A stretch of DNA of 64,000 bases from Thermus oshimai DSM 12092 (lineage in GTDB: Bacteria; Deinococcota; Deinococci; Deinococcales; Thermaceae): positions 1-64,000 of the forward strand of contig NZ_KB890614.1 in assembly GCF_000373145.1 (NCBI RefSeq), written 5' to 3'. The first letter of the stretch is position 1. Every line of letters starts with the position of its first letter. Below, in pieces: positions 48,099 to 56,035 of this stretch. Position numbers and translations under genes: made by a program. Below the pieces are notes generated by a model. That model searched no databases. It worked only from the letters and a program-made list of their open reading frames with translations, and was not told the origin of the DNA.

Positions 48099-48860
48099 AT
48101 GGCCCGCAGGCGCAAGGAAGGCCCTGAGGAGGTGCGCACCCTGGAGCGGGGGCTTAAGGTCCTGGAGGCCCTGGCCGAAGCCCGGGCCGTGGGCCTTACC
48201 CCCTTGGCGGAGCGGCTGGGGTTTTCCAAGAGCACCCTTTACCGCCTCCTCCAGACCCTGGCCCGGCGGGGGTTTGTGGAGGAGGAGGGGGGGCTTTACC
48301 GGGTGGGCCCCAAGGCCTTCGCCGTGGGCCGGGCCTACCTGAGCCAAAACCTCCTTCTGGCCGCGCGCCCGGAGATGGAGGCGTTGGCGGAGGCGGTGGG
48401 GGAGAGCGTGAACCTGGCGGTGCCCGCGGGCCTCGAGGCCCTCTACGTGGACCAGGTGGAGGGCCCCAAGCTGGTCCGCCTCTTCACCGCTCCCGGCTCC
48501 CGGGCCCCCCTCCACGCCACGGGGGTGGGGAAGGTCTTCCTGGCCTTCCGGGGGGTGCCGGAGGGGCTTCCCCTCACCCCCTTTACCCCCCACACCCTCA
48601 CCCAAAGGGAGGACCTGGAGGAGGAGCTAAGGGCGGTGCGGGCCCGGGGGTACGCCCTGGACAACGAGGAGAAGGAGCTCGGGGTGCGCTGCGTGGCCGC
48701 CCCCCTGTTTGGCCCCGACGGCCGGGTGGTGGCCGCCCTCTCCCTCTCCGCCCCCGCAAGCCGCCTCACCCTGGAGGAGGCCCACCGCCTGGCCCCCCGG
48801 GTGGTGGAAGCCGCAAGGAAAGCTTCGTTGCGCCTGGGTTATACAGGGGGTGTATACTAA
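48099..48860 (+). CDS. IclR-family regulator of the glycolate/glyoxylate operon
   Basis: A 253-residue IclR protein. N-terminal winged helix: TLERGLKVLEALAEARAVGLTPLAERLGFSKSTLYRLLQTLARRGFVEEEGGLYRVG, about residues 14-68, then the ligand-binding domain with PLHATGVGKVFLAF near 140-153 and a conserved cysteine in GVRCVAAPLFGPDGRVVAALSLSAPASRL near 195-223. IclR proteins bind small acids such as glyoxylate and pyruvate and control aceBA in E. coli. Divergent orientation to aceB and the shared inverted repeat suggest direct control. Its start at 48099 follows a 7-base spacer from TACCCT. The stop TAA lies in the MerR-gene promoter region. Confidence 0.9.
   Translation: MARRRKEGPEEVRTLERGLKVLEALAEARAVGLTPLAERLGFSKSTLYRLLQTLARRGFVEEEGGLYRVGPKAFAVGRAYLSQNLLLAARPEMEALAEAVGESVNLAVPAGLEALYVDQVEGPKLVRLFTAPGSRAPLHATGVGKVFLAFRGVPEGLPLTPFTPHTLTQREDLEEELRAVRARGYALDNEEKELGVRCVAAPLFGPDGRVVAALSLSAPASRLTLEEAHRLAPRVVEAARKASLRLGYTGGVY
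48828..48858 (+). promoter_or_regulatory. long-spacer promoter with dyad, upstream of the tandem MerR gene
   Basis: TTGCGC (48828-48833) and TATACT (48853-48858) are separated by 19 bases, longer than normal and typical for promoters remodelled by MerR regulators. A perfect inverted repeat, TATACA (48840-48845) and TGTATA (48851-48856) around GGGGG, lies in the spacer and overlaps the -10. The -35 match is weak (3 of 6), so the promoter assignment is tentative. It lies inside the 3' end of the IclR gene. Confidence 0.5.
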
Positions 48861-48900: not shown

Positions 48901-49599
48901 ATGGACAAGGACCGTCCCGTGTACGTGATCAGCGTGGCGGCGGAGCTTTTGGAGATGCACCCGCAGACCCTGCGGCTGTACGAGCGGAAGGGGCTCATCA
49001 AGCCGAAGCGGTCTTCGGGGAAGACGCGGCTCTATTCGGAGCGGGACATTGAGAAGCTCAGGGAGATCCGCCGTCTGACGCAGGAGCTTGGGGTGAACCT
49101 GGCGGGGGTGGAGGAGATCATGCGGCTTCGGGCGGAGCTCGAGGCCCTCCAGGCCCGCTTTGAACAGGAGGTGGAGAGGCTTAAAGCGGAGATCGGCGAC
49201 CGCTTCCAGGAGCTGGAGCGCAAGGCCCTCCCGCCCCCCGGGGAGACGGCCAAGCCCTCCCCCAAGGACCGTCCCGTGTACGTGATCAGCGTGGCGGCGG
49301 AGCTTTTGGAGATGCACCCGCAGACCCTGCGGCTGTACGAGCGGAAGGGGCTCATCAAGCCGAAGCGGTCTTCGGGGAAGACGCGGCTCTATTCGGAGCG
49401 GGACATTGAGAAGCTCAGGGAGATCCGCCGTCTGACGCAGGAGCTTGGGGTGAACCTGGCGGGGGTGGAGGAGATCATGCGGCTTCGGGCGGAGCTCGAG
49501 GCCCTCCAGGCCCGCTTTGAGGCCGAGGTGGCCCGGCTCAAGCTCCTCCTCCTGGAGGAGGGCAAGACCCCCGCCCAAGAGGGTAGCATGGGGGCGTGA
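48901..49599 (+). CDS. MerR/HspR-like regulator with two identical DNA-binding modules
   Basis: A 232-residue protein holding two copies of an HspR/MerR-type module. Residues 3-88 and 122-207 are identical: each begins [20 protein letters not shown], contains the winged-helix recognition region [20 protein letters not shown] and ends with a helical stretch ([14 protein letters not shown]). A charged, Pro-ended linker of 33 residues joins them; a short tail ([19 protein letters not shown]) follows. HspR proteins repress chaperone operons with DnaK as co-repressor. A single chain with two modules could act as a covalent dimer. ATG 48901 is used (GAGGAGG 11 bases before); a GTG at 48871 would lengthen it by 10 residues. 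It overlaps the peptidase gene (GTGA). Confidence 0.88.
48906..49163 (+). repeat. 258-base direct repeat, copy 1
   Basis: Identical base for base to 49263-49520 (period 357 bases, 119 codons), in the same frame. It encodes residues 3-88 of the tandem MerR protein. There are no synonymous differences between copies. Confidence 0.95.
49263..49520 (+). repeat. 258-base direct repeat, copy 2
   Basis: Identical to 48906-49163. It encodes residues 122-207 of the same protein. Flanking bases differ immediately at both ends (A/C before, A/G after). Confidence 0.95.
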
Positions 49600-55543: not shown

Positions 55544-55978
55544 CTACTCCGGCCAAAGGGCCCTCAGCTCCTTGGGCAAAAGCCCCCGGATGTCCGCGAT
55601 CTCCCCTTGGGAGATCCGGTGGGCCAGGACCTTAAAGACCGCCCGCGCCGCCTTTTCCGGGTCCACCGCGGGCCCGGAAGGGGTCTTGAGTTCCTGGGCC
55701 ACGTGGGCCAGGAAGGCCTCCAGGTGCCGCTCCTTCAGGGGCTTGCCCGTGGGGTCCCAGCCCTCGTAGAAGAAGCCCCGGACGAGCATGGGCAGCTGGG
55801 CGGAAAGCTGGGCCACCTCCTCCACGGTGAGCCGGTCCCTCAGGGCGTGGAGGACCGCCCTGAGGGCCATGTAGGCCCGGTGGCGGTCTTCCGTGCCCAG
55901 CTCCTCCATGACCTCCTTGAGCCAGGTGTGGGTCTTGTGCAGGGTGGTGTCAAACACCTCCAGCCCCGTGGCGCTCAT
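55544..55978 (-). CDS. DUF2267 family protein
   Basis: A 144-residue DUF2267 protein, all-helical: TGLEVFDTTLHKTHTWLKEVMEELGTEDRHRAYMALRAVLHALRDRLTVEEVAQLSAQLPMLVRGFFYEGWDPTGKP, the signature region (about 3-82), followed by HLEAFLAHVAQEL. The family is often found with stress or hopanoid genes; function unknown. I used the ATG at 55976-55978 because a strong promoter (TTGACA/TACCCT) lies directly upstream and AAGGGT is adjacent. A longer open frame upstream would read through that promoter. Confidence 0.85.
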   Translation of the reverse strand: MSATGLEVFDTTLHKTHTWLKEVMEELGTEDRHRAYMALRAVLHALRDRLTVEEVAQLSAQLPMLVRGFFYEGWDPTGKPLKERHLEAFLAHVAQELKTPSGPAVDPEKAARAVFKVLAHRISQGEIADIRGLLPKELRALWPE

Positions 55979-56000: not shown

Positions 56001-56029
56001 AGGGTAAGACTTGAGCGCTTGATTGTCAA
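56001..56029 (-). promoter_or_regulatory. promoter of the DUF2267 gene
   Basis: On the minus strand TTGACA (56024-56029), a 17-base spacer and TACCCT (56001-56006). The spacer includes an AGCGCT hexamer. The promoter lies just behind the dodecin stop codon. Confidence 0.7.
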
Positions 56030-56035
56030 GGGACT

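Follow-up and report, generated by a model that had tools for sequence, protein, structure and literature searches.

Single-module HspR repressors, as described in Streptomyces and Mycobacterium (NCBIfam NF047375), act on 7-N7-7 inverted-repeat operators at dnaK, clpB and hsp20, and DnaK is known as an HspR corepressor from actinobacteria (PMC10415612). Closer to the genus studied here, HspR of Deinococcus radiodurans (DR_0934), which belongs to the same phylum as Thermus, is reported to act through HAIR sites as a repressor of chaperone and protease genes (PMC6888292, with reference to Schmid et al., 2005). A form with two modules in one chain is already catalogued as NF047377, "HspR, fused homodimer type", and the architecture is hence not new; the covalent dimer is likewise implied by the family name, which is no proof of oligomeric state. 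No paper on a fused HspR was found in the literature searched.

The present analysis concerns a gene of this type in Thermus oshimai DSM 12092, located in a window of 64,000 nt (contig NZ_KB890614.1, positions 1 to 64,000), whose two modules are identical base for base. The reading favoured here, with a probability of roughly 0.75, is that the protein is a fused HspR, one chain of which binds one 7-N7-7 operator as a covalent dimer, that the fusion is old, and that the modules have been homogenised by gene conversion.

Gene organisation and family membership

The gene opens with ATG and encodes 232 amino acids, the frame remaining open through both copies of a 258-nt repeat that matches exactly with a period of 357 nt (Table 1). 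The identity, period and single-chain arrangement described in the sequence-only reading were thus confirmed. This is the sole exact repeat of at least 25 nt in the window, and a DNA search of the organism's own genome returned no further hspR copy. Had the same 84 codons been encoded twice independently, about 34 would be expected to differ under local codon usage, and the probability of observing no codon difference (log10 P = -21.7, under the same codon usage) excludes chance. The identical tract (codons 3-87) covers the entire winged helix-turn-helix (HTH) and just the first 20 or so residues of the long helix, each long helix running beyond it into non-identical sequence. Each copy had been said to encode a complete HTH plus coiled coil; the former holds, whereas only the beginning of the helix lies within the repeated tract.

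Table 1. Coordinates of hspR, its parts and associated elements in the window.
Feature	Position	Strand	Evidence
hspR, fused two-module form, 232 aa	48901..49599	+	NF047377, 392.6 bits (cut-off 300); two MerR_1 domains
Module 1, identical tract (codons 3-87)	48906..49163	+	Exact match at offset 357
Linker, comprising the last part of helix 1 and a Pro-rich flexible hinge	49164..49262	+	Low-confidence residues 110-116 in model; ~19% divergence among Thermus species vs 10% for modules
Module 2, identical tract	49263..49520	+	Exact match at offset 357
Last part of helix 2 and C-terminal tail, found in module 2 only; Leu-rich KLLLLEE kept in Thermus	49521..49596	+	Alignment
Probable -10 element TATACT of hspR promoter, at end of upstream iclR gene	48853..48858	+	Almost all Thermus leaders have a TATAAT-like element in the equivalent position
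Probable HspR operator of DUF2267 gene, overlapping its -35	56010..56030	-	Best profile site in window, 14.2 bits
DUF2267 gene	55547..55978	-	Conserved HspR-like operator in Thermus

Family membership was computed from profile scores. Two MerR_1 domains were detected with Pfam, NF047377 was matched above its cut-off over positions 1-214 of 214, and NF047375 was matched above its own cut-off in two stretches of the protein; the proposed MerR/HspR-like identity could therefore be narrowed to HspR. All 26 aligned proteins matched NF047377, and none of the 26 shows a change, in either module, in the DNA-contact segments of the recognition helix and wing (a ten-residue segment and KTRLY); both halves thus look able to contact DNA. 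The models for metal- or redox-responsive MerR regulators (MerR, ZntR, CueR, SoxR) scored below their curated cut-offs (MerR 81 vs 151, ZntR 79 vs 168 and SoxR 57 vs 117 bits).

At its 3' end, hspR overlaps an M20 peptidase gene, the stop codon of the former sharing bases with the GTG start of the latter (GTGA, 49596-49599), an arrangement that suggests translational coupling. The overlap is retained in most Thermus genomes and absent in T. parvatiensis and one other (G002).

Age of the fusion and homogenisation of the modules

The NF047377 cut-off was exceeded in 50 of 111 Deinococcota genomes, distributed over four families (f1, f2, f4 and f5); family f3 carries a single-module HspR. Because the two-module form is common to four families, its distribution indicates that the fusion is old in Deinococcota. 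When the locus was compared across Thermus, all 15 intact genes proved to be two-module genes that share the period of 357 nt, including those of T. composti, T. arciformis, T. scotoductus, T. parvatiensis, T. tenuipuniceus and T. caliditerrae.

These comparisons bear on two simpler accounts of the identity. According to the first, the duplication is very recent (one of two options in the sequence-only reading) and confined to this lineage, as the zero differences between the copies would suggest; it is refuted by the cross-species comparison, given the period-357 genes throughout intact Thermus, the two modules in other families and the species-specific states common to both modules. According to the second, a one-module gene was doubled during assembly. 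The assembly is indeed a draft of 24 contigs, and four Thermus assemblies contain a one-module gene, but assemblers collapse repeats and do not invent them, and the linker and tail are unique. The same structure also occurs in complete genomes, among them T. parvatiensis RL, finished with PacBio (PMC5529391), so that the two-module gene is no assembly product. Both accounts were rejected on the evidence of relatives and complete genomes, and either is considered extremely improbable.

Instead, the distribution of differences points to exchange between the modules. Among the 15 intact genes, the modules within one Thermus genome differ at 0-9 of 252 nt (median 1), whereas those of different species differ at 5-38 of 252 nt (median 25), equally for same-position and cross-position comparisons. 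Across 70 variable sites, the two modules of a genome agree in 1,023 of 1,050 cells, against a mean of 718 and a maximum of 848 when genomes were permuted (2,000 trials). In the tree, both modules are sisters by genome in 15 of 15 Thermus; those of Calidithermus (g2) and of a genus that is probably Meiothermus (g4) pair by position, 1 with 1 and 2 with 2. Even in the diverged outgroups, uninterrupted identical tracts exceed those obtained by site-weighted resampling in 9 of 11 genes (P <= 0.0033), the clearest three spanning 104, 121 and 132 nt inside diverged modules. Within- and between-genome distances, tree, permutation and outgroup tracts all agree with the gene conversion between copies that had been proposed, and these comparisons show that intragenic conversion (concerted evolution) homogenises the modules, most strongly in Thermus. 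The 258-nt identity is explained by repeated homogenisation through recombination-based gene conversion. T. thermophilus is polyploid (PMC6469415), and polyploidy would supply templates for such conversion; one study of strain HB27 detected no conversion between chromosome copies and ruled it out as an explanation for allele segregation at a marked locus (PMC6469415). As the repeat lies inside one gene and tracts can be read directly, hspR provides a clean natural test case for gene conversion, covering some 27 Thermus genomes and diverged outgroups.

In addition to the 15 intact two-module genes, the 27 Thermus genomes comprise seven in which a contig ends within the repeat and so interrupts the gene, one with a frameshifted gene and four with a one-module gene. 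The frameshift lies in the linker and is probably a sequencing error (G025, locus L045, Thermus sp. JCM 17653, a poor draft of 620 contigs). In the one-module genes (G013, G020, G022 and G026), the normal start is joined to the module-2 tail and the linker is absent. Outside Thermus, one- and two-module hspR also occur in the same genus (g19 of family f4; L056 in G056, and G054), which either genuine loss of a module or collapse in a draft would produce.

A switching role had also been suggested, in which recombination between the modules would take the gene functionally from one form to the other. The four one-module assemblies, among them the finished genome of Thermus sp. CCB_US3_UF1 (G020; 454 and Illumina reads, PMC4599208), are the sole observation in its favour, and they may reflect either repeat recombination or assembly collapse. 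Since deletion and collapse predict the same sequence, these assemblies do not demonstrate a switch; moreover, loss of a module also deletes the linker, which makes the change irreversible without an intact template. A switch is therefore regarded as very improbable. A related idea, in which selection for a symmetric covalent dimer keeps the halves identical while one-module alleles arising by recombination persist alongside two-module ones in the polyploid cells of Thermus and modulate heat-shock repression, is hardly more probable.

Operators, predicted regulon and oligomeric state

A scan of the organism's own genome for the classical CTTGAGT HAIR pattern with three mismatches gave hardly more matches than the reversed-pattern control (48 vs 46), and operators emerged only from comparison of dnaK promoters across genomes. 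Upstream of dnaK, a 21-bp site of HAIR geometry (7-N7-7) was present in 25 of 25 genomes, directly before the TTGAC -35 element, reading CTTGATA-N7-ACTCAAG in distant families and YATGAYA-N7-RCTCAAS in Thermus; in this genome it lies between dnaK and a divergent gene identified by eye as ftsH-like. Many relatives carry CTTGAYA-N7-TRTCAAG repeats at their clpB and hsp20 promoters. In this genome, the left half of the clpB site is weak and the operator profile returned no clear hsp20 operator. Genome-wide, the palindromic operator pattern matched 16 times against once for the reversed control, with several of the matches in or between unrelated genes. The DUF2267 gene, 7 kb from hspR, has the best operator site in the window (Table 1) and is a probable member of the heat-shock regulon; of 19 Thermus orthologues that could be read, 17 have a similar site some 50 nt upstream of the start codon. 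Taken as a whole, the analysis yields a predicted HspR regulon for Thermus.

The operator profile scored no site in the hspR promoter itself. Many or most Thermus hspR leaders carry an inverted repeat around the ribosome-binding site (TTTAGC-N7-GCTAAA) that is spaced like an HspR operator and could either serve autoregulation or form a hairpin in the RNA. In the leader of this genome (48859-48900) the repeat is rearranged rather than intact (GGCTAA-N6-TTAGCC; GTGCCT/AGGCAC). Hairpins in hspR leaders are predicted to be weak at 70 °C.

An AlphaFold model built from 26 sequences contains two winged HTH domains and two long helices (residues 67-105 and 186-221), with a mean pLDDT of 76 and a pTM of 0.62, the hinge (110-116) and tail being modelled at low confidence; a fold search of the PDB matched just the single HTH (GlnR). 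We infer that the long helices of the two modules would pair with each other within one chain, which would then bind one 7-N7-7 inverted repeat as a covalent dimer. Each promoter has one site of ordinary dimer size, as would be expected if an operator is occupied by a single two-module chain. Of the covalent dimer put forward in the sequence-only reading, the two DNA-binding halves in one chain are borne out, and the dimer itself is plausible.

Chains might instead still dimerise with one another, their modules cross-paired, and bridge two operators as a four-headed repressor. The helices of both modules are intact, the linker of about 33 residues permits either pairing, and HspR binds cooperatively in other bacteria, according to the title of PMC6102357. 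Nevertheless, one main 21-bp site occurs at each of the dnaK, clpB, hsp20 and DUF2267 promoters, with no tandem second site among the dnaK promoters listed, and this arrangement is judged unlikely. Under the favoured single-chain dimer, HspR would repress the heat-shock promoters of dnaK, clpB, hsp20 and the DUF2267 gene, and heat or unfolded protein would presumably relieve repression, as in other HspR systems. Structural or synthetic studies would thereby gain a naturally occurring MerR-type repressor made of a single chain.

Comparison with known HspR systems

The protein corresponds to NF047377 along the entire model, with two HspR modules in one chain, whereas the base-for-base identity of its modules falls outside the family definition. 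With the single-module HspR of Streptomyces and Mycobacterium it shares the HTH family and the operator geometry and target promoters outlined above; unlike them, it has two modules per chain, its gene lies outside the dnaK operon, and its half-sites are partly changed (YATGAYA, CTTTACA). As regards D. radiodurans, Deinobacterium, a member of the same family, scores above the fused-type cut-off.
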